Source: Eucommia ulmoides
Lineage: Eukaryota; Streptophyta; Magnoliopsida; Garryales; Eucommiaceae
Reading direction: 5' to 3'
DNA length: 64,000 bases
Assembly (NCBI GenBank): GCA_016647705.1
Contig: CM028339.1
Location: 21,378,803-21,442,802 of the forward strand
The notes below the pieces were generated by a model that did no database searches, had not been told where the DNA came from, and was given only the letters and a program-made list of their open reading frames with translations. Both the position numbers and the translations under genes were made by a program. Positions within the stretch are counted from its first letter, which is position 1; each line of letters begins with the position of its first letter. Positions 19,039 to 64,000 of the stretch are shown here, in pieces.

Positions 19039-19043
19039 AGGAT

Positions 19044-27575: not shown

Positions 27576-27593
27576 TCCCCGGCAACGGCGCCA
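27576..27593 (-). promoter_or_regulatory. Primer-binding site (tRNA-Asp) of element IV
   Basis: The plus strand reads TCCCCGGCAACGGCGCCA, a perfect copy of the tRNA-Asp 3' end including CCA, six bases before the LTR. It sets minus orientation. Confidence 0.9.
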
Positions 27594-27599
27594 AAAACT

Positions 27600-29117
27600 T
27601 GTACGGCGAAACGTTTGTTACAACGCTAGCATATTGACTACTAGCAAATGAACGAGACTTAGTTTTAATATAGTGGATCTTTTAAGATTGGATATTGTTC
27701 CCACAGGGACGGCTTGAATAAGTTGAATATTGTAATTGATATAGTCTCCTATTATCCAGACAGTTAAAGACATGATTCAAAATTAAACTAAGTTAAAGTA
27801 AGCTAAATTATAATTAGTAGGTTAATCCTAACTAAGTTGATTACCTAGGAATTGATTTCGTTCACTTAATACATGGTTGATTTCGTTTTAGTTAACATTA
27901 ATGGTGTCTATGGTATCCGACAATCTCGGTTCGTAAACTCCTTCGCCACCTCTTCCGAGTGTAAGACGGGTGAATACGCGATTTCGTGTCAACGAATAGG
28001 TCCCCCTCAATGTCTTAACGACCCTAGGCCGCATGAGTCTTGCCCCAACGTCATCGATTGCACACTAACTAACGCCTTCCCGAGTCGTTAGATCGTAACG
28101 ATATGTTTACTCTAGTCCGAATCCAGGGTTACCTCTTCCGAGCGTCAAACCCTAAATTCTCAAATTCAACCCTAATACCTTAACAAGCATATTAAAGTGG
28201 TCATAAAATGATGAACACGATCGGATTTAAACACAAACAATCGTTAAAGAAACATATATTCCATCAACCTAGTATTTACACAACTACACCGATCCCTAGT
28301 TAATATTTATCTAATTTATTGTGATCTTGACCATATAAGCATTAATACAAAAGATATTCATCATTATTTACAATAAAACATTAAATTACAAAGAGAGAAA
28401 TAAAGAGAGAAAGATCAAATGTTAAAGTAGAGTGGTTTCCACTTTCGCCGAAAATCGATCCGCCAATGTTTCCTCTTTTTCGGATGATAAATATCCTCTT
28501 CAAGAATGGCTAAGGATCACCTCCTAAGGTTAGGGGCGTCCAACAATGTCCAGACCTCCCAAGAGGCTTTAATGGACATGGGAGAATGGGTATTTATAGG
28601 TGCAAGGCTTCAAAATATCTAAAAAGATCTTCTTTCTGTTTGCAGAGTGACCGTCGCAGTGGTGGGGATCAGCGCCGCGGCGGTGGGTATGTCGGCCAGC
28701 TTTCCAAAACATACTAATCATTCATCGCCTAGGCTGTGATTTTATCTGCCTAGGCGATGGTTAATTCGATTCAATCTTCGCCGCGGCATTGGATATGAGC
28801 GCCACGGCGGTGGAACAGCTCCAACTCTCTGACTCTTCTTTGCCTAGGTGGTGGTTCTTATTCATTTTTCAGCAGTCTTCTACATCTCACCACCTCAACG
28901 GTGGCTTCTTCGCCGCGGCGGTGGACCTTGTGATCTTGAAACCTTGTTTCTTCATCATTTCTTCACCGTTTTCCCACCGTTTTCGCTCGTTTATCGCTTA
29001 TTTGCGTCCCTACACCTAAATTACATAAAAACTAACAAAAACACAATTAAATATAACTAATTCACTCAAAAACTACCAAATCCGATTTAGAAGTATGTAG
29101 ATATTTTACACCTATCA
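27600..29117 (-). repeat. 5' LTR of element IV
   Basis: Plus-strand start TGTACGGCGAAACG, end ...TTTTACACCTATCA. It holds a large GC-palindrome cluster at 28,650-28,930, with CGCCGCGGCG at 28,673-28,682 and again at 28,911-28,920, and CATCGCCTAGGC-type modules between. A TATTTATAGG-type TATA lies near 28,588. Confidence 0.85.
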
Positions 29118-29122
29118 AGGAC

Positions 29123-37014: not shown

Positions 37015-37810
37015 AAATTCTTTATGAAATGCTAATGAAAGAAAAAATAAAGGTAAATAGAATGAAAATGTTAAAAATAAATAAAGAAAGAAAAAATAAA
37101 TGAAATAAATAAATGAATGAATGAATGTTTAAATGAACGTTTAAAATGAATGAATGAGTAAATAAATAAATGTCTAAGTAAATTTTGTTTAAATAAATAA
37201 GTAAATAAATGTTTAAGTTTTTGTTTAAATAAATAAATGTTTAATGTTTAATGTTTAATGTTCAAATAAATGTTTTATGTTTAATATTTAAATAAATATT
37301 TTTATGTTTTATGTTTAAATAAATAAATAATTTTTTTTAGGTTTAATGTTAAAATAAATGTTTTAGATTTTATGTTTAAATAAATAATTTTTTTTATGTG
37401 TAATGTTTATATAAATATATTTATGTTTTATGTTTGAATAAATAAATTGATAAATATTTTTATGTTTAATGTTTAAATAAATAAATAAATAAAGGTTTTA
37501 TATTTTATGTTTAAGTTTTTATATTTAATATTTAAATAAATAAATAAATATTTTTATGTTTTATGTTTAAGTTTTTATGTTTAAATAAATAAATGTTTAA
37601 TGTTTAATAAATGTTTATGTTTATGTTTTTATATTTAATGTTTAATAACTGTTTTTATGTTTTATGTTTCTATGTTTAATGTTTTTATGTTTTATGTTTT
37701 TATGTTTAAATATTTTTATGTTTAATGTTTAAAATGTTTTTCATGTTTTTAAATAAATAAATATTTTTTTGCTTAATATTTAAATAAATAAATAAATTTC
37801 TTTTAATGTT
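37015..37810 (+). repeat. 800-bp AAATA/ATGTTTAATG low-complexity tract
   Basis: Almost entirely AAATAAAT and ATGTTTAA(T) words with no fixed long period. It separates the 63-bp and 128-bp arrays and probably arose by slippage. Confidence 0.85.
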
Positions 37811-42849: not shown

Positions 42850-45627
42850 GCTTCAATAAGCAAAGACAAATGGTTCCTAGATAGAGGTTGTTCTCGACAC
42901 AAGACGGGAGACAAAGAAAAATTTACATCTTTGACACCTAAAGATGGAGATCATGTGACTTTTGGAGACAGCGCAAAGGGTAAAATTATCTGTATAGGTA
43001 ATATCGATAATCATACTACTATTATTAAAGATGTATTACTAGTTGATGGACTTAAATATAATTTGCTTAGTATTAGTCAACTATGTGATAAGGGCTATAA
43101 CGTTATATTTCATCATGTTAGGTGCATTATTAAGAATAGTCATGATAGTAGTATCTTGTTAGTTGCATCACGTTTTGAAAATGTTTATACTTGCTCATTT
43201 GATAATTTTAATTTACAAAATTTATCTTGTTTGAATGTTTTATCTGAAAATAGTTGGTTATGGTATAGAAGACCTGGGTATGCTAGTATGGAGCTAATCT
43301 CTAATTTATCTAAGAAGAGTCTCGTACGTGGCATACCTGATTTGAAATTTGTGAAAGATAAAGTATGTGATGCATGTCAATTAGGTAAGCATGTTAGATT
43401 ATCATTTAAGAAAAAGATACACACGTCCATGTCTAGATGTCTTGAATTATTACATCTTGATTTGTTTGTGCCTAACTCTGTTGCTAGTTTTGGTGGTAAG
43501 TTTTATGCGTTTGTTATAGTTGATGATTATTCAAGACTTACCTGGGTATTTTTTCTTGCTAAGAAAAGTGAGATTGCTTATTTTCTTGCTAAATTTTGTA
43601 AACGTATTCAAAATGAGAAGTAATGTTCCATTATTAACATTCGAAGTGACAGAGGAAGAGAGTTTAAGAATGATGATGTGGTAAGTTACTGTGATGAGCA
43701 TGGTTATGCTTATAACTTTTCTGCACCAATATCGCTGCAACAAAATGGTGTAGTGGAAAGGAAGAACAGGACGCTTCAAGAGATGGCTAGAACGATGCTT
43801 AATGAAAATCGCTTACCAACCTACTTTTGGGCCGAAGCAATAAGTACAACTTGCCACGTGTTTAATTGGGTATCGATTCATAGAGGGTTTAACAAAACCC
43901 CATATGAAATCTGGAATAGTAAGACTCCTAATATTTCCTATTTTAAAGTATTTGGATGTATGAGTTTTATTTTGAATGACAAGGATAATCTTGGTAAATT
44001 TGATGCTAAATCAGATTATGAGATTTTTCTTGGATATGCTACTAACAGTAAGGTTTATAGAGTTTATAATAAACGTTCGTTAGTAGTAGAAGAAACTACA
44101 CATGTTATTTTTGAGGAAGCTGATCCATTCTTATCGAGAAATATTTTGGATGATGATGATGCAGGTATTTCAAATAATCAAACCAAGGTAATAATGTATC
44201 TAAGGAGTCCCAACAACAGGGGGAACCTAAAGAAAATGATTCATCTTTACCAAGAGCTATAAAGACAGTACCGGGACATTCGGTAAAAGAAATCATCGGT
44301 AATTTTGAAAGAGGTATAAGTACTCGTTCTTCTCTTAGGGATATAATTAATCTTTCTTTCTTATCTCAAATTGAGCCTAAAAATATAGATGAGGCATTAA
44401 CTGATGAATCTTGGATTTCCCTAATACAAGATGAGTTAGTTCAATTTGAGCGGAACAAAGTATGGTGTCTTGTTCCAAGACCGGATTTTTATCCAGTTAT
44501 TGGTACTAAATGGATTTTTAGAAATAATAAGGATGAATTTGGAATGGTAATTAGCGACAAAGCAAGATTAGTAACATAGTGCTATAATCAAGAGGAAGAA
44601 ATTGATTATGATGAAACTTATGCTTCTATTGCTAGATTAAATGCAATTAGAATGCTACTCGCTTTTATATGTTCACGTAATTTTAAGTTATATCAAATGG
44701 ATGTAAAGAGTGCATTTCTAAATGGCTTTCTGGCAGAAGAAGTTTATGTGGAACAACCCCCGGAATTTGAAAGTGGTAAATTTCTCGATCACGTATTTAA
44801 ACTTCGCAAGGTTTTGTATAGGCTCAAACAAGTTCCTAGAGCTTGGAATGAGAGACTTAGCCAATATTTGATCGAAAACGATTTTTGAAGGGGTATTTGT
44901 GATATAAAACTATTTGTGAAACAAACATATTATGATATCCTATTAGTACAGGTGTATGTTGATGATATTATTTTGGAATCTACTAATGAGGATCTTTGCT
45001 AAGAGTTTGCTAAGATAATGCAGGTTGAATTTGAAATGAGCATGATGAGAGAGTTGAATTTCTTTCTTGGATTGAAAATTAAGCAAATCAAAGAAGGAAT
45101 ATTTATAAACCAAGATAAATAGACTAATGAGTTGTTAAAGAAATATGGCTTGGAAGGTGCTAAAGAGTACAAAACTCTCACGGAAATGGCTACAAAGATA
45201 GACAAAGACGATACAGGAAAAAGTGTTAATGAAAAAATGTATCGAGGTATGATTGGCAGTCTGTTGTATTTAACTGTTAGTAGACCTGACATTATGTATA
45301 GTGTTTGTCTTTGTGCTTCATTTCAGTCTTGTCCTAAATAATCGCACTTAACTACGGTTAAGCGAATTTTTCGATACTTTAAATGGGACGACTGACCTAG
45401 GGTTATGGTATCCTAGGGGGAGTGATTTTAAATTGGTAAGTTACTCCGATGCTGATTTTGCCAGTAGCAAAGTTGAGCGAAAAAGCACAAGTAGGTCATG
45501 TCATTTGTTAGGACATGCTTCGGTTTCTTGGTCGAGCAAGAAACAGAATTCGATAGCCTTATCCACTACTGAGGCTGAATATATGGTAGCTGATAACTGT
45601 TGTGCTCAAATTTTATATATTAAATAA
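42850..45627 (+). pseudogene. Pol relic of element V (protease-integrase-RT-RNase H)
   Basis: The parts appear in Copia order. Near 42,870-43,150 is protease-like wording with a downstream LLSISQLCDKGYNV phrase. At 43,340-44,150 comes integrase with GKHVRLSFKKK, LDLFVPNSVASFGGK, FVIVDDYSRLTWVFFL, NRTLQEMARTML and FKVFGCMSF. At 44,500-45,340 comes reverse transcriptase with YQMDVKSAFLNGFL and LYRLKQVPRAWNERL. At 45,430-45,627 comes RNase H with YSDADFASSKVERKSTS and ALSTTEAEYM. The protein would make cDNA and insert it. The copy is broken, with many breaks. Confidence 0.9.
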
Positions 45628-45687
45628 CAATTAAATGACTTTAGAATTTGAATGGAGGAGGTCCCGATCTTTTGTGATGATAAAAGT

Positions 45688-47687
45688 TGTTGATCCTAAG
45701 GTATCGATAGACAATTAAATGTTGATGTTTTTGGTGAGACTAATGGTTTGTTCAAGTGTTTCAGTTTATTAGTTCTGGTGATGAAGATACAATGACAAAT
45801 TATGAATGGATGCTAAAGGATGATGACAAAGATGATAAAGAATTAAGAATTTGAAGAAATTAGAAAAAACAACTCAGGTGAATTTCAACTCTTAATATCC
45901 TAATTAGGAACACACAAGGCAATTTTTTTTTTATTGATTATGTATATTTTGATAAGATAAAATTATTTGCTCCTATGTGTATTTGAAAAGGAATATTTAT
46001 AATTGACTTAAATGGAATTTAAGAAGTTAGTAGAGCTTATTTAGAAAATGAAATGGTTAAAGGGGCGAAAACGTAAACAAGAAGGAGTTCAAAACGAGTT
46101 TAGAAAAGAGATCCAACATACTTAAGTCGACTGGTAGGTCAACCGGATAAAACAGGTGAAACTCTCTGTATCTTTAAGTCGACAGGTAAGTCGATCGATC
46201 AAGAGAAATAAAACTCTTTGTATCTTTAAGTCGACAGGTAGGTCGATCGGTGAAGAGAAATGGAACTCTCTAAATCTCAAAGTCGACAAATAGGTCGACC
46301 GATACATGCAACAGCTTTGGCTTGGCTACATTCTGAATCGAGCGGTCGACTGGTCGATCGACTGAAGGCGCAGTTTCAGGATATTGTGGATTCCGATTTC
46401 ATATCTAAAAGTAACTGTTTTTTGTTGGGATTTGTGAGAGATTTTAGGAATTTTATGATATTTAAGATATGCTTTATATATTATTTAATTCCTATTAAGT
46501 TTGATTGTTTCTCAATTTGGTATATAAAATTATTTCTATTCTATTTAATTGAGATTGAGAAATATTTGGGAGACTTAATTGAGAGATTTAAAAGCTTTAA
46601 TTAAGTGAATTGAACTAAAATGAATTAACAATGATATAAGGGGTCTAAGAGATCATTGAAGTGTCATGACACATGGGAATTAGCCATTAGAGAGGTGATT
46701 TATATCCTATATATATAGACCTGCATTTTTCATATATGATTAAGAAGTGAAAGTGATTAAGAGATCATATTGAGCTATTCTAAGAGATATCATTTTGAGA
46801 TTTTGTGAGAGCTATTCTAAGAGATGATCTTGAGAAGCGTTTGTTATTAATCATTACTGCAACTGGATCTGAAGTAACTATGTTCTTTTTATTTTTTCGG
46901 TGGATTCCGGGTGAGATCTTTCCAATTACTTTCTATTGTGCATTGCTTGTTTAATTTTTGAAAATTGATCTTTAGAAATTATTTTTAATTCCTTATTGAA
47001 GAAAATATTTTATAAATAATTTTTTTAATCTGATTACATGCGAAATTATTTGCTACCCATCTTTTGTTTAAAAATAGATTTTTAATCTCACACTTTTGTA
47101 TCACTAGATTTGGGATATTAATCGAGTTTTAATTTATCTAGGGTGGTAGAAGTTACGAGTGAGATTATTTGCTTATCAATTTGTATTGGTGAGCAGTGTG
47201 ACAGATTATATATACTGTTGGGGGTATTTAATCAAAGGGTAGCCGATTTTAGTCTCTTCCTATAAAGAGATTGAGGTAGTAATTCTTCTTAGATAGAATT
47301 GAGTTTGAGTGAATTTTGTAACGGTTTAATTCTTACCGGGTAAAAGGATATTTAGAGTGTTGGTGAGGTTTTGATTCTTTTGTCTTTGTGTTAAAAAGAA
47401 TTAGGTTATTCTTTAACCTATAAAAAGTAGAGGTTCTTTCTTAACCTGTAAAAAAGATTTTGTAAAGGTTGATTCTTAGCATGTAAAAGAATCATTGTGA
47501 GGGTTTGGTTCCTACCTTCAAAGGTATGTTCAGTATTAGTGGGTGGGACTCTCCGTGGGGCTCGGGCGATTGGATTAGCCAAGTGTAGCTTGGTAAACCA
47601 ATATAAATCTCTGGTGTGCTGCAATCTTTAATTTGTTTATTATTGTTTTTTGGTGTGCACCTAGTTGATTATATAATTCCACTTATC
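45688..47687 (+). repeat. Left LTR of element VI
   Basis: Starts TGTTGATCCTAAGGTATC. It contains TATATATA at 46,709-46,717 followed by GACCTGC, a likely core promoter, and the GTCGAC-rich cluster. At 47,687 plus-strand LTR sequence stops and reversed Gag sequence begins. Confidence 0.8.
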
Positions 47688-47699
47688 AGAAACAGTGAG

Positions 47700-50076
47700 T
47701 TATTCCTTCTTCTTCTCAACTCCATTTTCCATTGGAATGAATGGACCATCCTCGATTGTTAGCCATACGTCATAATTTGTAGCCTGAAGAAAGGTTATTA
47801 TCCTGTCTTTTAAAAACGAGTAACTTTCACCTGCAAACAAGGGTGGTCGGTGCATAGACTGCCCCTCAGTTAGTGTGCATACTATGTGTGCCATGTGATC
47901 TTTGTTAGCAAAAAAAAAAAATTCGGGCTAAACCAGCTTTGATACCAATTGTTAGCCCAGTAGAATACCCAAGAAGGGGTGAATTGGATAATTAAAAAAT
48001 TTATCAAAATAAAACTTGAATAAATCAAATAATTAATTTTAAGACTAAATTAATTATTATCTTTATAACACAGCGGAATAATATGATCAATATATGTGCA
48101 CACTCAAACAACAAAAATAATAAAGTAGTAATGCTGCACACAAAAGATTTATACTGGTTCACCAAGCTACTCTTGGCTAATCCAGTCCCCAGAGCTCCAC
48201 GGAGGTTGCACCCACTAAAACCAAGATTCTTTTAAAGGTAGGAACCAAATTCGCACACCGATTTTTTTTACAGGCTCAGAATCAACCTTTACATTATCCT
48301 TTTCTCAGGCTAAGAAAGAACCTCTACTTTTTACACGCTAAAGAATAACCTAATTCTTTTTAACACTAAAGCACAAGAATCAAAACCTCTCAAAACACTC
48401 CAACTATCCTTTTCACAGGTAAGGATAGAACTTTTACAAATTACTCATGACACAATTCTTATCCAAGAAGAATTACTATCTTAATCTCTTTACAGGAAGA
48501 GACTAAAACCCGACTACCCTTGATTAAATACCCCTAATTGTATTTAACCCGTCACAACTCACCAATACAAAAATTGATAAGAAGTAAATCCCACTCGGAG
48601 CTTCTACCACCCCAGACAAACACTAACTCAATTATTATTCCAACTAGTGAATGAAATACGTGAGATGCAAAAATCTGATTTTAACAAGATATGGGTAGTA
48701 AATTGGAGCACATAATCAGATTCAATAAATTGTTTGTAAAAAATATTTTCTTCAAAAATCAGAAACAATTTCTAAGACCGATTTCCAAATATAGAATAAT
48801 AAACAAACAATAAGCAATATGGAAAGATCTCACCCGGAATCCACCGAAAGAAAATAGTATTGCAATATAACTTCAAATCGGTAGCAGCAATGATAAGCAA
48901 ATAATTCTCTTAGAAAAGCTCACTCAATTCTCAATAAGATATCTCTTAGAAAAACTCACTCAATTGATAAATTCCGATCTCTCTTGATAATAGATGGATT
49001 CTCTCTCTTAGAATGATTAGTCCTAAAATAAAAATTCGTAGGTCTATTTAAAGGAATATGTAATCAACCTTCTAATGGCTAGTTTACATGTGTCATGACA
49101 AATAAAACCTCTAATAGATCCCTTATATCATAAGGATTTCATTTAAGTTCAATTTTAATTAAAAACATCTTTCAAATCTCTCAATTAAACCCCCAAAGTA
49201 TTTCTCAATTTCAATTAATAAGAATAGAATCTATTTAAAGTACTAAATTGAGAAATATTAATATTTAATGAACCATATTAATAGGATTTAATTAGTATAT
49301 GAACTATATCTTAAATATAGATAATATCTCCTAAATCTCTCTCAAATCCTAACAAAAAATGGCTACTTTTGGATATAATCTCGGATCAAACAATATCTTG
49401 AAACAGTGCGTTCGGTCGACTACCTAGTCAATTACCCAATTTAGGTTGTAACCAAACTATCGTTGTTGGGTGCATAGGTCAACTGCCCAGTCGAATTTTA
49501 GATTCAGAGAGTTCTTCTTTTTTTCATCAATCGACCTATCAGTCAACCTCTTAATTCAGATAGTTTTTCTTTCACCGGTCGACTCCTTGATTCAGAGAGT
49601 TCAATCTTCTTTCACCGGTCAACTCACCAGTAGACTACTGTCATTGGATCTCTTTTCTGAATACGTTTTTAACTCATTTTCTTTTATGATTTCGCCTATT
49701 TAACTATTTGTTTCTCTTAATTAGCTTCACTAATATTCTTATATTCCATTTTGGTTATTCAAAATTATTTCTTCTTATTCCACATAGGAAAAAATAATTT
49801 AACTTAATCAAAACACACATAAAAGATAAAATATATTTTGTGCCATGTGTGTGTTCCTCCTAAATGGGATATTAAGAGTTAAGATTCACCTGGGTTATTT
49901 TCCCTAATTTCTTTAAACTCTTAATTCTTCTTCATCATCTTGACATCTTCATTTAGCATCCATTTAATTTGACGTCTTCATTAATGAAACTTTAAATCAC
50001 TGAAACACTTCAATTAAACATTAGTTCTACCAAAATATCAATACTTAATTATTCATCAAAATCTTGGGATTAATAA
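47700..50076 (-). mobile_element. Inverted Copia piece: Gag start, primer site and LTR (minus)
   Basis: On the minus strand an LTR (about 50,076 to 47,950) ends ...CTGGGCTAACA. It is followed by TTGGTATCAAAGCTGG, a good initiator-tRNA-Met primer site, and then a Gag N-terminus (47,894-47,700) with SMHRPPLFAGESYSF and TNYDVWLTIEDGPFIPM. It is the best preserved 5' end of this family in the window. Confidence 0.8.
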
Positions 50077-50089
50077 AGGGAAATTGCTG

Positions 50090-50970
50090 AGAAATTTGAT
50101 TTAGGGAGAGACAAAGCAGGATTATTATATATTGAGCATCAATTCCTTCATCTGGTGCTAACCTATTCGGTTGTCCCTAGAGGGAGAAATCATGCTAATG
50201 TAAATGACTTTGATCTCTATTTGATGAATGAGATTGTTGAAGGGAGAAAAATGGATTTGGCTCATATCATGATGGACCACATGAAGTATCATGTTCAGAA
50301 ACTTTCTGGAATACTACCCAATGTTGATGTACTCCAAAGGTTGTTGATTACTTTGGAGTTATAATTCATCCTGATGAGCAAATGTTTATGACAATCACAC
50401 TTGGATGGATCAATGTGGGAAATGCTTCGTTAATGGGGTATGAGTATAGAGAAAATAAGTGGGTAAAGAAGAGAAATCAAAAAAGGCAGAGAATGCAGGT
50501 TGTAGATGAGGAAGAAGAAAATAAAGAAGAAATAAATATAAATTAGAAGATGGATCTTTTCCATGATCGGATTGATGATCTAAGGATACATGCGGATTTG
50601 ATGGATGATAGGATGACTGGGCTAGAAAATAAAATGGTTCAGATGAATATGAACATGGAAGCTGGGTTTGGGAAAATCACAAGGAATTTGGAATAAATGT
50701 TTCAGTTTATACAGTCATCTCATCACGAATATCAGTAGCAGTACAGTGCTCAGCCACACTTTACAAAACATTCAATGTTTGGATCACAACAGTCCTTTAG
50801 AGGACCAACTGCAGCAGGGTCATCTGGAGTAGGACCGTCAACGTCGTTTCATCAGCAAATGAATCTAGGACCAATTGTTCAGCCAGGTGTTCCATATCCG
50901 CAGCAGCCAGCTACTAGTGCGATGGGACTGTATTATCACTTTTCTATACTGAGCCCATACTAGACTTTAT
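50090..50970 (+). pseudogene. Extra ORF relic of element VI (PF20167-like plus coiled coil and Pro/Gln-rich tail)
   Basis: At 50,155-50,364 an open stretch contains LTYSVVPRGRNH, DFDLYLMNEIVEGRKMDLAH and IMMDHMKYHVQ. It resembles the C-terminal half of the plant 'putative plant transposon protein' domain (LP+G..., DL-LL-x-LL-G+KINL...ILRHM). Next come a charged linker rich in Glu/Lys near 50,440-50,545, helix-prone wording with DRIDDLR and DDRMTGLENKM, and a Gln/Pro/Ser-rich tail (50,700-50,930). An extra ORF of unknown function between pol and the 3' LTR is a known SIRE-lineage feature. It is broken, with a few breaks. Confidence 0.55.
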
Positions 50971-50975
50971 CATTT

Positions 50976-51588
50976 AGTCTCTTTTGATTTGTTTTTAAAA
51001 CAAGATCCATGTTTATTCTTTTGGTCTGTAATAGTTAATCTAGGTTATTTGGTTTAACTTGACTTCTAGTGTTTGGATTTTGATGAATTACCTAGATTTG
51101 ATCTAATTGGTTAGATTTTTTTTTTTTTTTTTCTCTAATGATGAACCACATCGTATTTGTTGAAAATGATTTTATTATATAAACTTGATTTATTAAAATG
51201 GATCTTATTTCTTTCAAAGATTGAGTAGATTTGATATTTATCTATAGTGTTAATGTTTTGTGGTTTAAATGTAATTTGTTAAAATAAGTTTTGATTTTAA
51301 AGTTGATTCAATGTGCTTTTATTATATGATTGCTTAGAGTAATGTTTATGTACATTCCCCCTCCCTAAATTTTGTTTTTGAAGATGACAAAGGGGAAGAA
51401 TTAGTTGATATTTTATTAAGGGGGAGTTTTTATTTTAAATTTGTGCTTTATTGATTATGTTTTTAAAATCTTAATTCTTATGCTTAAAAGAGTTATAAAA
51501 CACGTCCTCGGATTCAGGGGGAGTGTAGTTATATTATAGTTTTGAAGAAAATATCAAAGTTAATTGTTATCATAAAAAAGAGGGAGAT
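50976..51588 (+). other. 3' untranslated region and polypurine tract of element VI
   Basis: AT-rich, with several purine tracts (GACAAAGGGGAAGAATTAG, AAGGGGGAGTTTTTA, TTCAGGGGGAGTG) and the final AAAAAAGAGGGAGAT directly before the LTR at 51,589. Repeated GGGGGAGT tracts before the 3' LTR are typical of SIRE-like elements; the same set occurs at 53,975-54,190 in element V. Confidence 0.75.
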
Positions 51589-53706
51589 TATTGATCCTAA
51601 GATTTTGATGGACAATTAAATGTTGATGTTTTTTGTGGGACTAATGGTTTGTTCAAGTGTTTCAGTTTATTAGTTTCAGTGATGAAGATGCGATGACAAA
51701 TTAGGAATGGATGCTAAATGATGATGACAAAGATGATGAAGAATTAAGAGTTTGAAGAAATTAGGAAAAAGAACTTAGGTGAATTTCAACTCTTAATATC
51801 CCAATTAGGAACACACACGGCATAAAAGTTTTTATTGTTTGTGTGTTTTGATAAGATGAAAATATTTGCACCTATGTGTATTTGAAAAGAAATATTTATA
51901 ATTGACTTAAATGGAATTTAAGAAGTTAGTGGAGCTTATTTAGAAAAAAAAAATGGTTAAAGGGGCAAAAACGTAAATAAGAATGAGTTCAAAACAAGTT
52001 TAGAAAAAAGATCTAGCATGCATAAGTCGACTGGTAGGTCAACCAGACAAAACATGTGAAACTCTCTGTATCTCTAAGTCGACAAGTAAGTTGACCGGTC
52101 AAGAGAAATGAAACTCTTTGTATCTCTAAGTCAACAGGTAGGTCGATCGGTGAAGAGAAATGAAACTCTCTGAATCTCCAAGTGGACAGATAGCTCGATC
52201 GATGAACGCAATAGCTTTGGCTTGGCTACATCCTGAATCGAGCGGTCGACTGAGGGCACAATTTCAGGATATTGTGGATTCTGATTTCATATATAAAAGT
52301 AGTTATTTTTTCTTGGGATTTGTCAAAGATTTTAGGGATTTTATGATATTTAAGATATGTTTCATCTATTATTTAATTCCTATTGATTTGGTTCATTAAG
52401 TTTGATTATTTCTCAATTTGGTACATAAAATTATTTATATTATATTTAATTGAGATTGAAAAATATTTGGGGGACTTAATTGAGAGATTTAAAAGTTATA
52501 ATTAAGTGAATTGAACCAAAATAAAGTCATAATGATATAATGGATCCAAGAGAGCATTTAAGTGTCATGACACATGGGAATTAGCCGTTAGAGAGGTGAT
52601 TTATATCCTATATATATAGACCTACGTTTTTCATATATGATTAAGAAGTGATAGTGATTAAGAGATCATATTGAGCTATTCTAAAATATATCATTCTGAG
52701 ATTTTGTGAGAGCTATTCTAAGAGACGATCTTGAAAAACATTTTCTATTAATCACTGCTGCTACCAGATTTGAAGTAACTATTTCTATTTATTTTTTTGG
52801 TGGATTCCGGGTGAGATATTTCCAATTACTTTCTCTTATGCATTGCTTGTTTAATTTTTGGAAATTGATCTTTAGAAATTGTTTTTAATTCTTGATTCAA
52901 GAAAATATTTTATAAATAATTTCTTAAATCTGATTACGTGCTAAATTATTTGCTACCGATCTTTTGTTTAAAATCAGATTTTCAATCTCACACTTTTCTA
53001 TCACTAGATTTGGGATATTAATCGAGTTTTAATTTATCTGGGGTGGTAGAAGCTCTAAGTGAGATTATTTGCTTATCAATTTGTATTGGTGAGTAGTGTG
53101 ACGGATTAAATACTGTTGAGAGTATTTAATCAAAGGGTAACCGATTTTAATCTCTTCTTGTAAAGAGATTGAGGTAGTAATTTTTTTGGGATAGAATTGA
53201 GTTTGAGTGAATTTTGTAACGGTTCAATTCATACTAGATAAATGGATATTTGGAGTATTGCTGAGGTTTTGATTCTTTTGCCTTTATGTTAAAAAGAATT
53301 AGATTATTCTTTAATTTGTAAAAAGTAGAGGTTTTTCCTTAGCCTATGAAAATGATTTTGTAAAGGTTGATTTTGAGCTTGTAAAAGAATCGTTGTGAGG
53401 GTTTGGTTCCTACCTTTAAAGAGATCTTGAGTATTAGTGGGTGCGACTCTCTGTGGGGCTCGAGGAACTAGATTAGCCAAGAGTAACTTGGTGAACCAGT
53501 ATAAATCTCTGGTGTGCTGCAATCTTTAATTTGTTTATTATTGCTGTTTGATGTGCACCTAGTTGATTATATAATTCCGCTGTGATATAAAGATAATAAT
53601 TAATTTAGAATTAAAATTAATTATTTGATTTATTAAGTATTTTATTCTGATAATTTTTAATTACCCAATTCATCCCCCATCTCTTGGGTATTCTATTGGG
53701 CCAACA
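51589..53706 (+). repeat. Right LTR of element VI
   Basis: Starts TATTGATCCTAAGATTTT (TGTTGATCC in sister copies) and ends ...TATTGGGCCAACA, followed by the AAAGT duplication. TATA stretch at 52,610-52,617. Confidence 0.85.
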
Positions 53707-53711
53707 AAAGT

Positions 53712-53938
53712 ACTCTTTGTCTAAGTAAGAATCCTACACAGCACTCATAAACTAAGCACATTGAGATTAGAAATCACTTTATTCGTGATCACATTCAGAA
53801 AAAGGACATTGTTATTGAGTATATTGATACCTCCGACTAGCTTACTAAAGTTTTTACCAAACCACTAGCGGAAGATAAGTTTGTAAAAATCATTCGCGGT
53901 TTGGGTATGGCTAAGCGTAATGATATTTTCCTAGAGTA
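53712..53938 (+). pseudogene. RNase H tail of element V
   Basis: Resumes the reading broken off at 45,687, with wording such as TKHIEIRNHFIRDHI-like and IEYIDTSD, FTKPLAEDKF, which is the usual end of Copia RNase H (KHIDxRxHFxRD...FTKPL). The final codons are followed by purine-rich 3' sequence. Confidence 0.85.
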
Positions 53939-54191
53939 GATTTCTTGTGTATTTCTCCCCTCCCTTTATTTTTTTGAGATGACAAAGGGGAAGAATTAGT
54001 AGATATTTTATTAAATATCTTAAGGAGGAGTTTATTTTTATATTTGTGCTTTGTTGATAATTTTATGAATATCTTCATTACTATGCTTAAATAAGTTATC
54101 AAATCCGTCCTCGGATTTAGCGGGAGTGTGGTTATATTATTGTTTTGAAGAAAACATCAAAGTTCATTGTCATCATAAAAAATGGGGTGAT
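53939..54191 (+). other. 3' untranslated region and polypurine tract of element V
   Basis: Contains GACAAAGGGGAAGAATTAG, AAGGAGGAGTTTA and AGCGGGAGTGTGG, then AAAAAATGGGGTGAT before the LTR. Parallel to 51,370-51,588 of element VI. Confidence 0.75.
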
Positions 54192-56264
54192 TGTTGATCC
54201 TAAGATTTTGATGAACAATTAAAGGTTGATGTTTTTGGTGGAACTAACGATTTGATTAAGTGTTTCAGTTTATTAGTTCCAAATAATGAAGATATGCTGA
54301 TAAAAATGATGAAGGATTAAGAGGTCGAAAATTTTGAAGAACCAAGGAAAAACAACTTAGATTAAATTTCAACTCTTAATATTCCAATTAGAATCACACA
54401 TGACACAAAAAGATTTTTAAATTAATTTTATGTGTGTTTCAATAGGATCCTAATTAGCTAAATTATTTGCTCCTATGTGTAATTGAAATATAAATATTTA
54501 TAATTGATTGAAATTGAATTTAAGTATTTAGTGGAGTTAACCCAGAAAAGAAATTGGTTAAAGGGGCCAAAACGTCAATGAGAATAAATTAAAAACGAAT
54601 TTAGAAGAGGTTCTAGTATCCATAAGTCAATAGGTAAATCGATCGAAACAACGAAAGAAAACTCTCTATATCTCTCGGTCGATAGGTAGGTCGACCTGTG
54701 CTTGAATATGAACTCTCTGTATCTATAAGTCAACAAAACAGTCGACCTATGAAGAGAAATAGAACTCTCTGAATCTCTAAGTCGATATATAGGTCCACCG
54801 ACGGGCACATAATCTTTGGTTTGGCTACATCCTGAATCAAACGGTCGACTGCTGATCTTGGTCGGTCGACTTATGGGTATGTTTCATGATATTATGGAAT
54901 TCCGAATCTTATTCTAAAAGTAGCCGTTACTAGCTTCTTCTTTTTTTTTGGTAAGATTCATGAGAGATTTTAGGGATTTAATATTATTTGAGATATGCAA
55001 CACATATTATGATCTCCCTATAGATTTGGTTCATTAAGTTTGATTATTTCTCAAATTGTTACATATAATTGTTTCTATTATATTTAATTGTGATTGAGAT
55101 ATATTTTGGGGACTTAATTGAGAAGTTTGAAAGCTATAATTAAGTGATTTGAACTAGAATGAAGTCTTAATGATATAAGGGGTCTATAAGAGCAATTAAG
55201 TGTCATAACCAATGAGAATTAGTCGTTAGAGAGCTTATTTTAATCCCATTTATATAGACCTGCGTTTTTCATATCAGTAAGTGAGATTAAAGAGAGATCA
55301 AGAGATTATACTGATCTTTTCTAAGAGAAATCATATTGAGAATTGTGAGAGTTTTTCTAAGGATCATTCTTGAGAATTATTTGCTGTGAATCATTGTTGC
55401 TACCGAATCTGAAGTAACATCGCTATAATTATTCTTTCGGTGGATTTCGGGTGAGATCTTTTCAAATTACTTTTTATTTAGTATTACTTGATTAATTTTT
55501 TAAATTTGATCATTAGAAATTGTTTTCTAATTTTTTATTGAAAAATGTTTTTTTTTTTTAACAATTTCTTGAATCAATTTGATTACGTGCTCAATTATGT
55601 GCTACCAATTTTTGTTTAAAATCATATCTTGAATATATCACTTTTCTATCACTAGTTTTGGATTATTAATTGAGTTTTAATTTATCTGAGGTGGTAGAAG
55701 TTTTGGGTGAGAAAAATCACTTGTCAATTTTTAATTGATAATTTGAGTGACGGATTAAATACTGTTGGGAGTATTTAATCTAAGAGTAACTGGTTTCAGT
55801 CTCTTCCTGTAAAGAGATTGAAGTGGTAATTCTTTCTAAATTGAATTGTTGTGTGAATTTTGTAACGGTTCAATCCTAACCGAGTAAAATGATATTTGGA
55901 GTGTTTGTGAGATTTTGATTCTTTAGCCTTTGTTTTAAAAAAGAATTAGGTTATTCTTGAGTCTGTAAAAAGTAAAGGTTGTTACTTAATCTGTAGGAAA
56001 TTTTGTAAAGGTTGATTCTGAGCCTGTAAAAGAATCTTTGTGAGGGTTTGGTTCCTACCTTTAAAGGAATCTTGAGTTTAGTGGATGCGACTCTCTATGG
56101 GGCTTAGAGGACTGGATTAGCCAGGAATAGTTTGGTAAACCAGTATAAATTTCTGGTGTGCTGCTATCTTTACATTATTTATTTTTGTTGTTTGGTGTGT
56201 ACCTAGTTGATTTTATATTTCCACTGTGATATAAAGATAATAATTAATTTAGGATTAAAATTAA
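54192..56264 (+). repeat. 3' LTR of element V, interrupted at its right by a MULE
   Basis: Starts TGTTGATCCTAAGATTTT. Aligns with the 5' LTR up to its ATTAATTTAGGATTAAAATTAA stretch, where a new element begins. The last ~100 bp of the LTR would be expected beyond the window end if this is a simple insertion. Confidence 0.8.
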
Positions 56265-56810
56265 GGGGCACGCACCAATAGGTCACTTTTCACAATTCTA
56301 TGTACCAATCAAACCCCAAGTTTTTTTTTTTTTTTTGCACTGTTAGGTCCTTTGTGTTTTTTCCTGACCATCTTACCCCTGCAAGTGTTCGGATTAGGCA
56401 TTCTTTGTTTTCTTTCCTCGAGCTGCAGTTAATGTTCGAGAATTACATTCCACAAAACCTAGGTGTTGACTGTGGACATCAAAAAAATATGAAACTTGGC
56501 TATTTTTATGATTTTTTTGGTGTTCAAAAAATAAAATTTTTACATCATATTAATCAGAAAAAAAAAAAAAAAATCAACGTTAATTTGATGTGCTATTCAT
56601 GATTTTTGGTCAGGTGGATATGAAGATGTGTGGGTGTCACATTCAACATTCAAATGGTGTGTGTGGAATATAGCATCCAAATATATGTATTCTGGATGCA
56701 TGGTGCCGTGTATCGCGAAACACCAAATCATTCTCCCATCTGCCGCCTCTTTCAAATCAGCCGTACTTTCTGTGAATAGGTGTGACCGTTTAGGTAGTGG
56801 CGCGTTTACC

Positions 56811-56820
56811 ATATATAGAG
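56811..56820 (+). promoter_or_regulatory. TATA box of the DUF1985/Ulp1 gene
   Basis: CATATATAGAGC lies about 115 bp before the ATG at 56,935. A transcript start would be expected near 56,845, giving a leader of about 90 bp. Confidence 0.45.
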
Positions 56821-57239
56821 CATAAACCTTCCATTATTAATCCAAAACAATAAAAAAAACCGTTCGTATTCCATATTTGCTCCCCCCGATTTCCATATCG
56901 AGACACTCTAAAAACTTTCGATCTCTGAAAGACAATGGTGACAACTCACTGTAAGATAAGAACCGTAAACCCAAATACGGCTGCAATAGCCGTGAATCTC
57001 ACCGACTCGGTTAGGTTTTATCGATTTCTCAAATGTTTCGCCCTTTTGGTGTGTGTTTATTATAATAAATACTGTATTACTTGTTTGTTTGTTGTTTGAT
57101 CCTAAAAAAGTCAACATGCAAGTGAAAGTGACAATATAAAAATAGCTTTTTTTTCGATCCTGTTGGGTCCTATTTTTGTTGTGTTTTATGGGTGTGTTTG
57201 TACTCACCCTCTTATTCGTCTTCTGTGTTTGTATGTAAT

Positions 57240-57985
57240 TGTTACATTCAACCCCATGTTACATTTCGACACTGTATCAGTCGCTCTTTCCTCGATTCTG
57301 TTGGGTACAATTTTGTTGTGTTTATGGTTATGTTTGTACTCACCCTCTGACTCGTGGTTTGTGTTTGTATTATGTTTTGTATTTGTGTGGAATGTAACGT
57401 TGGTTGAATGTAACACAAAGCTCTTTTTGGTGGAAATTTTTGAAGAACTTGGGTTGAATGTGTCATTTTTAACACATTTGACTCAAATAAGAATTCAGAG
57501 TGTGTGTTAAAAAGAATGTAGCATATTGAATCTTGCATAATGATATATGTTGTCTGTGTAAAAGACACTCGATGCATTTGAATTGAATGTAACATATGTT
57601 GAACGTAATAAAATCTCTATTTTGTGGGATTTTTTTTATAAATTTTGTTTGTCAAATTTTGTGAGTTAGCTGTATTTTTGTGTAAAATATTATGTCAGAT
57701 AGTGTGTTAAATGTAACATTTATTTGATATTGTTTGGTCTGTTGAGTGTAACATAATTTGACTGTGCATGTGTATAACACGCCGTGTATGTAGAATGATC
57801 ACATTTTCAATTTCGTGTTACATTCAACACAACAAAGAGAATATTTTTTGGTAAAAAAAAATCAAATACAGTGTGTGCCCAATCCCCCTTGTGGCTATAT
57901 TGATTATTACATTCAACCTGGTTTGTGTTGAAATGTTACATTCAACATTGATTCTCTATCAGTTAGTTTGTTGAATGTAACATTC
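57240..57985. repeat. TGTTGAATGTAACA motif cluster, intron 1
   Basis: Exact GAATGTAAC or its complement at 57,241, 57,390, 57,406, 57,585, 57,817, 57,935 and 57,973, plus near matches (57,706, 57,742, 57,906). Copies are in both orientations. The cluster stops just before the acceptor of exon 2 at 58,012. Confidence 0.85.
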
Positions 57986-59030
57986 ATTATTGTTGATTAG
58001 GTGTTTTTCTAGATGATGATGTTCCCATAAGATCCACGCAACGCGCTACGTCGCCCAGTGGGTCTCAAAACTCCATAGTGCCATCGTGTAACTCTTTCGA
58101 TTCAGATGCTATTGATTCATTGTCATCTAGAATTCCAGAATCGTGCCCGTTGTGTGCCCCCATCACTAATTACCGGGAAAACCTATCACAATTTTGCTCG
58201 CTTGTTTCCAGTATTCGTCTACGTGATTCACACCTTAAACTTCTTAAACGGACGCCCTTTGAGAACACAATGAGTGCTCTTTTTCAAGAAAATTCAGTGG
58301 ATTTAGCTTTTAACAAGATTGATAGCTTCTGTGCAAATATTATACTTATATACCAACCGCACCAGAAGGCTTTTAGAATTGGCCCGAAGTTGGTGACTTT
58401 CACTCCGGATGATGTGCAACTTATTTTTGGCTTTACATCCAGAAAGAAACCGATTCCAGCCCGGTATGTGAAGAAGACTGATAGCTCATTTGTGCGCCGA
58501 CTAATTGGATAAGTGTAGTTCAAATCAGGAGCATGCTGGTCAGAATTATGGGGAATGATGTTTAAGACGATGTTGAAGATGTCGTGTGGTTGCTCTGTTT
58601 GCATCTTATCGCGATGTGTTTTTTTGCAAACAAGGGCCAATCATGTATTATTTCTTATATAAGGCTTGTTGAGGATTTGGGTGCCCTTTTATCCTACAAT
58701 TGGGCTGATCGTGTGCATTCCAACCTGATGTCTTCAATTGAAGCTGGATACCAGACACCGTCGTCTGTCATTATATGCGTCCTCGCGTTACAGGTTATAT
58801 TTCTTTTTCATTTGTTTAAAACTAAAAACTTTAGTTAATAAGTATTGTCTGTAACTTTTTCTATTTTGATTTAAACTTTTTATATTTAGTTCTGGCTGTG
58901 TGAGTACACTAAAATTCTCCGTACTACTCCCGGGCGAGAGATATTTATACCACGATGGGGGAAGTGGAATATGCTGGAGCTTATGACTGTTGCATCCGGG
59001 TTGCACCTGTCTGAAATTGATGGGACTCAG

Positions 59031-59119
59031 GTATGTTACATTGTGTGTTGAATGTAACATCCATATGTGTTGAATGTAACATCCATACTGTATGTTGGTG
59101 AAAAATGGCATTATTTCAG
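59031..59119 (+). repeat. Motif pair inside an 89-bp intron
   Basis: A GTATGT donor at 59,031 and TTATTTCAG acceptor at 59,111-59,119 enclose two direct copies of GTGTTGAATGTAACATCCAT (exact cores at 59,050 and 59,072) and a third partial copy. The flanking exons have none. Confidence 0.85.
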
Positions 59120-60269
59120 GTCGATGAAGGTCATTTAGTTGAGACAATTGCTAAAATACAAGTCGGTGTCGTATTTCCCGTCCATGGTGATATTGAGGAG
59201 TCGAGGACAAGAAGTAAAGGCAAAACGAAAGTTAGCTCATCAAACGAGTTTCCATATTTTGATTTGGGGATATCATAGCCGTTTAGCGAGGATGCCACTG
59301 ATTTTGGTGGTGGTTCGCAAAATTTGAATGACCTTGTTGAGCAAAATCGTCAGTTGACAACCAAAGTTGAGGCATTGAGGGATTCTAGTAGGCGTCTAAG
59401 ACTGAGGAAGTCGGTGAAGATTGCAAAACTACGTGAAAAGGTACGAGACTTGAAGTAGACAGTACAACAATTGCAGGGGGATCTTATGGAATCAGAGGTG
59501 CACGTAGTTACACAGTAAGTACATCATGAGACTGAAAAAACCAATCTAGAAGATCAATTGGTCGAGGCTGTTGTCCATTCTGTAACGCAGTCAGTCGAGG
59601 AGAAGAATAAGCATGAAGATAATATTGTTGGCATCTCTAAATTCTATCAAATGGAGCTAGCAGATAGGAATAACGTAATCGTGTAGTAAGACAAATAGAT
59701 TGGGCGTCATGATGACTTGGTAATGGTCTAGCCGCTGCGACGCGTTTCGCGATCGAAGAGCCGGCCGACAACACCCAATTCGTTTGTAAAAAATGTAAAG
59801 AAACGTATGAGAACGTGAAATACATGAGAGGACTCTATTCATGAGTATACTGTCCCCGTCAAAAACCAACGTCGATTGAAGAAGAAGGAAGAAAATCCTG
59901 TCAAGGATATGGTCGTTTACACTGGTGAGCCCCCCGCATCAACTGCAGTTGTTGTTGAGCTTTATGTGTTGCCTCCCTGAGAGGGGGCTGTTGCCTGCCT
60001 GTTGCTCCCTACTGTTAAGAGAAGCTTGAGTTGATCCTACGCACAGAAGGGTCTTCATAAGTATTTATTTTCTTTTGTTATATTTATTTAAGCTTCAAAT
60101 TCAAACGTCCCCATGTCTCATATTTTGAATAAATCTGTAGTGCGTGCATATGGAGAGGTGAATTTCTGGATGCTCATTTATCAGTGTGCGGCATTCTTGG
60201 TATATTATGGGAGGATCAATTATCAAATTTTGTAAGTGGCTTCTAGAGTTTTTTGTGTATCAATATATG

Positions 60270-60370
60270 TGTATGTGTTACATTCCACATGTATTGAATG
60301 TAACAAGCTTGAGATATGTTGAATGTGGCTTGATCTCCTGTGTTGAAGGTAACATCCTATGTGTTGTGTA
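60270..60370. repeat. Motif cluster between coiled-coil and Ulp1 exons
   Basis: Exact cores at 60,277 (minus orientation) and 60,296, near matches at 60,315 and 60,343. Confidence 0.8.
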
Positions 60371-61523
60371 TAGGTTATTAATTCATATATGGAAATTATG
60401 TGGACTGAGCAGAATAGAGTTGTTACCCAGCTGTCGGATCTACCTAATTCATCTTTTTTTTATGAACAGTGCATGCTGGGTGAGTCTAAAAAAAACACAC
60501 CTATTTATCTCTTTTCCTATAGTGTAAAACACATGCACTGTAACTCCATGAAAATGCCCCAAATAATGTTTGTTCATTTTTTGCGCCTTTACTGCTGCGT
60601 CTGCCAGACCTGGATCAAGTGGAAAGTTACTAATTGCCTTGCACAATTTATCAATCCAAGCATAATGATGCATTTTCGTCCACTATCCGTTACGTGCATT
60701 TTCCTTTGCATCATGAGGGGGCAAGAGCTGATTCGGGGCATTGAACGCTCCTCTTGTATGATAAGCAAAAATCAACCTGGGATCATTATAATTCTATTGA
60801 TTAGTGGCTACCGGGATCATTTGACCATTATTATGGGGATGCCAAAAAAGTTGTAAGATTTTTTTTCAACACTTAATTGTGTGTCCAACTCGGCACCCAT
60901 TGTCCTTACATTGTTTTTTTGTCCTCACAGATATAATACATCACCAAGTTGCTTTGGACCACGGCTAAGGAATATAAGATGAAGCGTGTTCAGGTTTCCA
61001 ACGTGTCAGAAGTGCCTAATCAGGGTGGATCAGTGTAAGTGTCATTTGTTGTTCATGCATGATGCCGTTCTGTTTTAAAAAATGTACCACGTAGCACTGA
61101 CTGTCCCATTACGTTTTTGTGTGCGCAGTGTTGACTACGGTGTTACTGTGATTTACGTAATGAAGCAGATTTACAGTGCACAAAAAATCGACGTTGATTT
61201 GGGGCCTGACGGATTTCGGATGGAACGAGCTGCACTGGTCCATGCGTTCCTCAATGATCATCCCCGCTCATGGACTGTGGACAACTGTTTATCTAGGAAA
61301 ACTTAATTTATAGTGTATCTCGTACTTTCATAGTAGTTGTTGTTTGAATTGGTCGTGATATTTAGCCAGCATATGGATTTTGTGTTTTTTCCCATTATGC
61401 TGCTGAATTTTTTTATTTTTTGGGGCTGTGTATTACGATGTAACATTGATTACCATTTTCATATTATTCCCATCTTTAACGTTGATGAATGCATCAAACA
61501 TATGAAGATAAATATGGTTTGGG

Positions 61524-61749
61524 TAGTACATTCAACTTTCTCATTTGAATGTTGAATGTAACATTCAACACAGGTTGTGTTACATTCAACATGCAAATAA
61601 AAAAAATGTAAAAAGCATTCCACTTGTTGTGTTGTTTTGTCTGATATATTTCATCACCACCAATGCCCCCTCCAGACACACGACATTCAACACACGTCAT
61701 GTTACATTCAACATCTTAAAAAATTAAAAAAAATAAAAAAAATAAATAA

Positions 61750-61788
<39 letters not shown>

Positions 61789-62055
61789 GTAACATTCAAC
61801 ACACGTCATGTTACATTCAACACCGTCCTTTGAATGTTGAATGTAACATTCAACACATGTCGTGTTACGTTCAAGTATTTGCGTAATAATGTAAAACACA
61901 TCCCACTCCATTTGTGCTATTTATTTGATACATTTCACCACCACTACCCCTTTCCCCCCACACACACATTGCCCCCTCCGCACGCCAAACGTGTTACGTT
62001 CCACATCTAATTAACATGTTCAATATAACATTCAACACAAGTCGTGTTACATTAC
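61524..62055. repeat. Dense motif cluster between the two genes
   Basis: Exact cores at 61,554, 61,579, 61,701, 61,810 and 61,839; several are palindromic overlaps of the form GTTGAATGTAACATTCAAC. Near matches run to 62,050. An (AT)n run lies at 61,755-61,786. Confidence 0.85.
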
Positions 62056-62404
62056 CATGTGTGAATTATTTAGTGCATCATCAATTAACATGGAGTGACC
62101 CCCCATTCTATTCCATGCGGTGTTTTGTGTGATATTTGCTCCATCAAAACATAAGCATTGTTAGATGTTTGTATTGGTAATCGTGTACATAGATAATCAT
62201 TTTTAGCACTGCCTAAGTAGTCCATTTGACGTCCTTCACTAATTGCTGGTGATTGAAACGTCATGATAGAAAAACGTACGCCGGTTACCTGTGCACAACG
62301 CCGATATTTCTTTTGCGTTGGGGAGCGAACTGTCTCGTACGTTTGGGTATGGGGCGATGGTTATAAATCGAAGCGGTTCACATTCACCCCCATTGTCCTC
62401 CCTT

Positions 62405-62410
62405 TATATA
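62405..62410 (+). promoter_or_regulatory. TATA box of the downstream small gene
   Basis: CCTTTATATATCTCAC, with CA-type start candidates about 30 bp on. A GTAAGA donor near 62,551 and a TTTTAATAG acceptor at 62,641 would remove a leader intron directly before the ATG at 62,643. Confidence 0.35.
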
Positions 62411-62642
62411 TCTCACTTGAATCCAAAACGTTGACACCGGTTCGCGTGTCTGGTTCCTCCCCAATGATTAAGGTCTTGTTTCGTGTTGCATGTTACTTCT
62501 TCGTTCATTTCTGCGCAGATTTAAGCCTCTGAAAATCTCATGCATACATCGTAAGAGTTCCTTTTTTGAATTCGTCATGTTGTTAATTGTGGATATTTAT
62601 TTTGTAAAAATGAATATTTAAATGTTTTTTAATTTTAATAGG

Positions 62643-62930
62643 ATGGCCAGACAGCAGAACACCACCGATTTTGATAAGTCGCGCCCAAAATGGGACAAGG
62701 ACTCTAAAGTGTTGATGGATATTGCACAGGGTTTGTGGTACATGTTGGGCGGTGCCCGCTAGACGTACGCTTCGATGGCCAAGGACAACGAGGACATGAA
62801 GCTGGAGATCCAATGACTCAATTTGCTCATCTCTAGTCTACGTGATGAGGTTGAACTGTTGAAGAGCCACATTGGACCTGGTTATGTTGCACTAGCCCTA
62901 AGTGAGTCATCGGTACATATGGAGCAGTGA
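62643..62930 (+). pseudogene. Small coiled-coil gene of the MULE-like element
   Basis: A 96-codon frame from ATG at 62,643 to TGA at 62,930. It begins MARQQNTTDFDKSRPKW, contains MDIAQGLWYMLGG, and ends with a helix-prone part (MAKDNEDMKLEIQ, LISSLRDEVELLKSHI, SSVHMEQ) suited to a short coiled coil. Stops interrupt it at 62,760-62,762 (TAG) and 62,814-62,816 (TGA), each one transition from CAG/TGG and CGA. I do not recognise the family. Base composition is less AT-rich than its flanks and, as in the first gene, the GAATGTAAC motif is absent from it. It could be a nucleic-acid-binding or accessory protein of the element, but nothing shows that. Confidence 0.5.
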
Positions 62931-63149
62931 AGCCCATTGTTGGTTCTTTTTTTCTTTTTCTTTTTTTTTGTTTGTTTTTGTTTTTTTTTTTTTTGGTATC
63001 AAGTTACACATTTTTTATCTATCCTCCCCATGTGTCTTTACATAAACTAATGTCTCTGTTTTGATCGTCAAACATTATGTTTATCGCTTGTTTTATAATT
63101 TGGATGTGTGTTATACACTGTTTTGTTTTTGGTTTTTTTGGGAAAAAAA

Positions 63150-63870
63150 ATGTTACGTTCAACATCGTTTTTTCCCGGGTTTGAATGGTACATTCAACAT
63201 TGACTTGTATATGTTTTTGTGATGGAATGTTACATTCAACGTTGACTAGTCTGTTGAATGTGACATGATTGGAGTGTGCATGGGTGCAACACCCCCGTGT
63301 TTGTGGAATTATAACATTTTCTAATTAGTGTTACATTTAACGCAAAAAAGAAAATGTTTTTTTGGTAAAAAAAAAAAATCAAATACAGTGTGTGCTCGAT
63401 CCCCCATGTGGCTGTACATTCAACCAACTTAGGGTATTGAATGTGTCGTGCATATATAAAAGTAGCAGTTTTTTGTTGATATCACATTCAATGGAAACAA
63501 AAGAAATAAACATGGGCAAGCAAAAATACAATTTGTACAACAGGTTCATCATGTGGCTATACAAAAAAGAATCCGTCTATTCAATGGTGTTACATTCCAC
63601 AATATAGTCGATGTTGAATGTAACGTGCACGTAGCAAACTTATATAAAAAGCAACATACAAGGTGTAGAGCAGATTCATCATGTGACAATTCATCCCGAT
63701 GAATTTGTCAAGTAGGTAAAATACAATGTGTGGAACATATTCATCATGTGGATGTCAAAAAAATCCGTCTCTACGTTGTTGTTACATTCAACAAATTGTT
63801 GATGTTGAATGTAACGCGCACGTAACAGAACTTATGTATAAGCAACATATAAACAAATATAAATTGTGGA
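63150..63870. repeat. Right motif cluster with ~190-bp tandem units
   Basis: Exact cores at 63,229, 63,589, 63,616, 63,781 and 63,807, plus near matches. Two tandem units begin TTCATCATGTGG at about 63,545 and 63,739 and each holds an inverted motif pair (GTTACATTC... GAATGTAAC). The block at 63,215-63,430 is also a direct repeat of 57,700-57,925. Confidence 0.8.
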
Positions 63871-64000
63871 TGACAAACCAACCCCCAAATAAGAAAAAAA
63901 ATGTATGTTTTATTCATGTCCAATAAATCTATGAGGAACGTAGATTTTATTTTAGTATGAAAACTAAAAATCAAATAAAATATCAAAGTATTGAAATTCC

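Follow-up and report, generated by a model that had tools for sequence, protein, structure and literature searches.

Within a 64,000-base stretch of the Eucommia ulmoides genome (GenBank assembly GCA_016647705.1, contig CM028339.1, positions 21,378,803 to 21,442,802 of the forward strand; hereafter the window, with positions counted from its first base), the rightmost part is occupied by a transposon-like element whose non-coding DNA carries dozens of copies of a short sequence, TGTTGAATGTAACA. Within the window, the motif array is restricted to this one element and is absent from the parts read as its exons. The left edge of the element is marked by an interrupted retrotransposon, and its gene matches the DUF1985 and Plant-mobile-domain (PMD) profiles weakly. 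We consider it probable, at roughly 0.7, that this is a decayed Ulp1-type VANDAL-like element, that is, a Mutator-like element (MULE) without terminal inverted repeats (non-TIR), whose DUF1985/PMD-like protein, intact in relatives, bound TGTTGAATGTAACA and thereby lifted silencing. A protein-motif pair of the Ulp1-type VANC kind is named as the most likely source of the array because the motif layout is what such a pair predicts.

The word GAATGTAAC occurs exactly 22 times in the window, 21 times between 57,241 and 63,815 and once at 36,102, against an expected count of 0.76 and a largest count of 3 in 100 whole-window shuffles; the lone distant copy is compatible with chance. Copies with one mismatch number 20 from 56,900 onward and 10 before it, and two of these ten (56,442 and 56,636) lie inside the element. 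These figures reproduce an earlier note on this DNA, made by eye, which had listed 21 exact copies in 6.6 kb, about 20 near matches and a single earlier copy at 36,102. For the 14-mer TGTTGAATGTAACA, 11 exact and 17 one-mismatch copies were found from 56,900 onward, compared with no exact copy and one single-mismatch copy (56,635) before it. The 12-mer GTTGAATGTAAC, counted independently of any weight matrix and allowing up to one mismatch, was found at 33 places within 56,265–64,000 and at none in the preceding 56,264 bases; when the element was shuffled 200 times under a first-order Markov model, the count averaged 0.13 and never exceeded 1. A ranking of k-mers without a preset word led to the same sequence, in that the top k-mers of the right end are all fragments of it (after versus before 56,900: GTTGAATGT, listed as ACATTCAAC, 28 versus 1; GTTGAATGTAAC, 16 versus 0; TGTTGAATGTAACA, 11 versus 0). 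Among 9-mers crowded into any 6.6 kb, only one other stretch comes close, near 37 kb, where AAACATAAA reaches 20 copies in an AT-rich minisatellite that consists of TTTTATGTTTAATG-like units and spans 37,065–37,790.

The weight matrix of the sites reads TGTTGAATGTAACAT, with GTTGAATGT as its strongest part. It was built from the motif sites themselves and is hence circular as a test; it serves here to define strong sites (score above 12 bits) and a weaker set (above 8 bits). There are 45 strong sites after 56,900 and five before it. Three of these five (56,441, 56,635 and 56,662) count as inside the element because its edge lies at 56,265, which gives 48 strong sites inside and two outside (42,098 and 46,300).

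None of the 45 strong sites from 57,240 on falls within sequence read as coding, 2,819 bases in all, where an even spread would place 18.2. The nominal p value of 7e-11 assumes independent sites, an assumption broken by duplicated blocks within the element (Table 1). The 48 strong sites are divided between the left 670 bases (3) and the five non-coding stretches of Table 1 (13, 2, 4, 15 and 11, from left to right). No site above 12 bits is present in four short introns or gaps (58,794–58,889, 60,478–60,596, 60,856–60,933 and 61,037–61,128), and none above 8 bits in 56,676–57,239, around the presumed promoter and first exon; the region around the second gene, 62,040–63,150, contains a single weak site at 62,484. 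The claim that the motif lies only in introns and between genes and never in exons thus stands for the exons, and two copies are indeed present in the 89-bp intron, both as exact 14-mers; its extent is corrected by the four short introns or gaps that are free of strong sites. Within the window, therefore, a dense short motif restricted to the non-coding DNA of one element, as in VANDAL/VANC systems, is what we find.

The left edge was placed by means of copia long terminal repeats (LTRs). Three of the four alignments between the LTR from 54,192 and related LTRs end exactly at 56,264, and the fourth ends at 56,225; other LTR pairs align about 85–90 bases further, to 41,210, 53,707 and (inverted) 47,949. 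The next 72 LTR bases expected were not recovered in 56,200–64,000, save for one 12-mer at 61,403 that is taken as chance. Accordingly, the motif-bearing element starts at 56,265, inside a copia LTR, and continues past the window, so that the start at 57,240 given in the earlier note is replaced. The break at 56,265 is presumably a MULE end. Terminal inverted repeats were considered and rejected: the best local alignment scored 31, compared with shuffle maxima of 32 and 30 (two trials, 100 shuffles), and is AT-rich, starting at about 56,494 rather than at the left end.

Reading frames and plausible splice sites delineate a gene at 58,010–61,306, with a possible first exon at about 56,935; several stops interrupt it, as does a frameshift near 58,510–58,566. 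In Pfam, the single frame 58,566–58,838 matches DUF1985 with an E-value of 0.018, and the preceding frame gives no match. A spliced translation with X's across the frameshift matches PMD (E 0.0018) and DUF1985 (E 0.061). When the two frames are joined, the match to DUF1985 covers profile positions 15–140 of 141 at E 0.0021 (score 18.5 bits, cut-off 35.1), and that to PMD reaches E 0.00016 (score 21.4 bits, cut-off 34.9). The C-terminal region resembles Ulp1 by eye, judged against what we take to be the signature of that family (His-Trp, Gln, Asp-Cys-Gly); it reads GH and Q-x5-DYG, with Tyr where the catalytic Cys is expected and a stop where Trp is expected. A search of solved structures gave no meaningful match: the best hit of the Ulp1-like composite was the ubiquitin hydrolase USP28 (E 0.078), that of the DUF1985/PMD-like composite was a receptor fusion (E 0.99), the last Ulp1-like exon had none, and no VANC was met in the PDB. 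An unpublished crystal structure of VANC21 is mentioned in three papers (PMC12844716, PMC12312487, PMC8756742). The open reading frame (ORF) at 62,643–62,930 matched only INO80F, below the cut-off (E 0.23). A TATA-like box, recognized by eye, is located about 240 bases upstream of this ORF, which could be a second gene of the element.

VANC protein-motif systems are already published (VANC21, VANC6 and the Ulp1-type VANCs of eudicots), and the motif described here differs from the two readable published motifs. According to PMC5735166, VANC21 occupies the non-coding DNA of VANDAL21, binds the 9-base YAGTATTAY in vitro and removes methylation, and VANC6 acts likewise with other motifs, AGTTGTCC/AGTTGTAC. 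The same non-coding regions are targeted by silencing through RNA-directed DNA methylation, and VANDAL terminal repeats are degenerate (PMC10398659). Ulp1-carrying VANC genes (KIU) of VANDALs are described as acting on motifs of their own type, with motif-specific hypomethylation, and their domain as conserved in eudicots (review PMC13317346). Like VANDAL21 (Hi), the Eucommia element carries a dense short word in intron, intergenic and terminal non-coding DNA, but not in the parts read as exons, together with some tandem repeats, and the counterpart of the DUF1985-type VANC21 would be its gene with the weak DUF1985 match; unlike there, where YAGTATTAY lies in one orientation, TGTTGAATGTAACA occurs in both, and the anti-silencing demonstrated in Arabidopsis would be a prediction for the Eucommia element (PMC5735166). 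The VANDAL6/VANC6 system of Arabidopsis represents the same kind of protein-motif pair, with its motifs in non-coding tandem repeats but of a different sequence (same paper). With Kaonashi (KIU) and other Ulp1-carrying VANCs of non-TIR MULEs, the gene shares its layout, in which an Ulp1-like part (seen by eye here) comes after a DUF1985/PMD-like one (PMC13317346). It differs from them in being broken, in an Ulp1-like part without a profile match and in the lack of a visible transposase. When the literature was searched for the motif in four forms, none of them turned up in the papers covered, which excluded the primary paper on eudicot VANCs (EMBO J 2022). The statement that the motif differs from known ones is thus upheld for the two published motifs and the searched texts.

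In the mechanism that we propose, the DUF1985/PMD-like protein of an intact relative would bind TGTTGAATGTAACA in the introns and intergenic DNA of its element. Such dense binding would lead to the removal of DNA methylation, locally and then across the whole element, which would in this way evade silencing by the host while leaving other loci largely unaffected.

Several results weigh against this reading. The VANC-like gene is broken, and this copy cannot make the protein. The DUF1985 and PMD matches are both under the curated Pfam cut-offs, and since the better E-values came from choosing to join two frames, they are counted as weak support. Of the DUF1985/Ulp1-type gene announced in the earlier note, the first half therefore survives as a match below the cut-off, and the second found no Pfam match at E-values up to 10 in the gene translations. 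No transposase was detected on either strand of 44,600–64,000 by six-frame Pfam comparison with X at stops, in which only a copia reverse transcriptase fell below E 0.1; the evidence that this gives against a transposase gene broken and split by introns is weak, because the DUF1985 part escaped that scan too. Neighbouring sites less than 120 bases apart share their orientation in 17 cases and oppose each other in 17, unlike in VANDAL21, although a same-orientation array is a trait of VANDAL21 that is not known to define the whole kind. Helical periodicity of motifs is reportedly a feature of the many VANC-motif systems of the 2022 eudicot study; a helical spacing of 10–11 bases is unsupported here, with p values of 0.069 for 45 sites and 0.29 for the 37 that remain when each of three duplicated blocks is represented only once. 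In one of these block pairs (57,737–57,899 with 63,249–63,416), the motif is kept no better than its surroundings (28/33 versus 110/130 bases). The proposal that the layout fits a VANC-type pair accordingly holds for the placement of the motif, which matches VANDAL21/VANC21 and VANDAL6/VANC6 as described in PMC5735166, and is opposed by the mixed orientation, the broken gene and the weak DUF1985 match. Pattern scans for relatives of the element returned 0 matches in viral contigs and 58 in prokaryote contigs, none of them a relative; these collections say little on plants.

The site arrangement also bears on how the motif might be read. Five convergent site pairs at a 7-base offset form 21-base near-palindromes (57,969, 61,550, 61,835, 62,017 and 63,221). 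The half-site TGTTGAATGT is present 42 times when up to one mismatch is allowed; five of these copies continue into the other half with at least 6 of its 7 distal bases, compared with 0.8% of non-coding positions. These five correspond to three loci (61,550, 61,835 and 62,017), two of which are counted from both sides, and because the three share flanks, the support for a palindrome is weak and the dyad may partly echo duplication. One version of the VANC-like reading would give the system a target, TGTTGAATGTAACA, that is new, partly dyad-symmetric and active in either orientation, taking the form of the near-palindrome TGTTGAATGTWACATTCAACA in places. In contrast to the same-orientation arrays of VANC21, this would suggest that an Ulp1-type VANC binds as a dimer; we regard this version as unlikely, the more so since the well-completed palindromes stem from three loci with common flanks. 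The equal orientations (17/17) and the five near-palindromic pairs would also suit a site for another protein of the element, the transposase or the product of the small second gene, serving transposition or promoter control. The TnpA sites of En/Spm offer a precedent for sites of element proteins, and dimeric DNA-binding proteins often favour palindromic sites. Transposase sites, however, usually lie close to element ends, whereas 13 sites here are in the presumed intron, 0.7–1.7 kb in, and 15 in the mid-element spacer; moreover, no transposase was seen in the part of the window that was scanned. Such a role is unlikely.

Another explanation is neutral: slippage and duplication may have multiplied the word in unconstrained non-coding DNA, so that the array would be a by-product that no protein binds. 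Several blocks are indeed duplicated (pairs of 82%, 81% and 76% identity), selection on coding sequence alone would yield the absence from exons, and motif and other bases match equally in the first block pair. Nevertheless, grouping the 52 sites above 8 bits by their flanks gives 35 classes, and most sites are therefore not explained by block copying. Motif bases match at 28/33, 27/28 and 55/60 positions in the three pairs and the other aligned bases at 110/130, 87/106 and 52/67, so that the sums, 110/121 versus 249/303, differ in favour of the motif, if weakly (Fisher p 0.025). Simple amplification also looks otherwise, as in the minisatellite at 37,065–37,790 with its overlapping units in one tract. 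We thus judge neutral multiplication to be quite improbable. An ordinary satellite or minisatellite was rejected, given the flank classes and the lack of contiguous head-to-tail units; the only tandem stretches carrying the motif are two short, two-copy ones (59,044–59,087 and 61,787–61,827). Decay from a CpG-containing ancestor GAACGTAAC is disfavoured because the second decay product, GAACATAAC, is missing (element counts: GAATGTAAC, 21; GAACGTAAC, 3; GAACATAAC, 0). That the word, short and partly dyad-symmetric as it is, serves the host, be it a transcription factor or other machinery, is very improbable, since a host site would be expected outside the element as well, whereas the 12-mer, even when one mismatch is allowed, is absent from the other 56,264 bases, many of them repeats, and the sites avoid the presumed promoters.

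Table 1. Features of the element and of the neighbouring retrotransposons (window positions).
Feature	Position	Strand or orientation	Remarks
VANDAL-like element (putative)	56,265–64,000	+	left end GGGGCACGCACC...; right end outside the window
Presumed first intron	57,009–58,009	+	13 sites, 13.0 per kb; exon 1 and splice sites by eye, phase fits poorly
VANC-like exon, DUF1985/PMD-like	58,010–58,793	+	stop and frameshift at about 58,510–58,566; no motif; boundaries by eye
VANC-like exon, end of PMD-like region	58,890–59,030	+	no motif; boundaries by eye
89-bp intron	59,031–59,119	+	two exact 14-mers TGTTGAATGTAACA in a 22-bp tandem repeat
Hydrophilic, coiled-coil-like exon (by eye)	59,120–60,036	+	several stops; no motif
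Non-coding stretch	60,037–60,373	+	4 motif sites
Ulp1-like region (by eye)	60,597–61,306	+	three pieces, two introns; internal stops; no motif
Intergenic stretch	61,307–62,642	+	15 motif sites, some in diverged repeats
Second small broken ORF	62,643–62,930	+	no family above cut-off; no motif
Non-coding stretch	62,931–64,000	+	11 motif sites; unit of about 190 bases twice near 63,523–63,852
Duplicated block pair 1	57,737–57,899 with 63,249–63,416	direct	82%; one copy towards either end of the visible element, each with sites
Duplicated block pair 2	63,523–63,661 with 63,718–63,852		81%
Duplicated block pair 3	61,527–61,660 with 61,812–61,944		76%
Outer copia LTRs	39,041–~41,210 and 54,192–56,264	direct	88.5% identity
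Inner copia LTRs	45,687–47,683 and 51,588–53,581	direct	88.4% identity
Related inverted LTR	~48,033–50,076	inverted	from LTR alignments
copia pol domains	42,838 to ~45,170		

The retrotransposons to the left comprise four related copia LTRs in direct orientation, starting at 39,041, 45,687, 51,588 and 54,192, and one in inverted orientation at about 48,033–50,076. Their pairing resembles that of one copia element nested inside another. Further to the left, 2,511–20,296 and 27,576–29,120 are rich in direct and inverted repeats of up to kilobase size with about 67–90% identity.

If the proposed pairing of an Ulp1-type VANC with TGTTGAATGTAACA is correct, the Eucommia element would represent a further protein-motif pair of transposon anti-silencing, with a motif unlike the two readable published ones, and the mixed orientation of its sites would be informative about DNA recognition by Ulp1-type proteins. 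With such pairs, joint change in a DNA-binding protein and its dozens of sites can be tested; their possible use for demethylation at chosen sequences has been proposed in PMC5735166.

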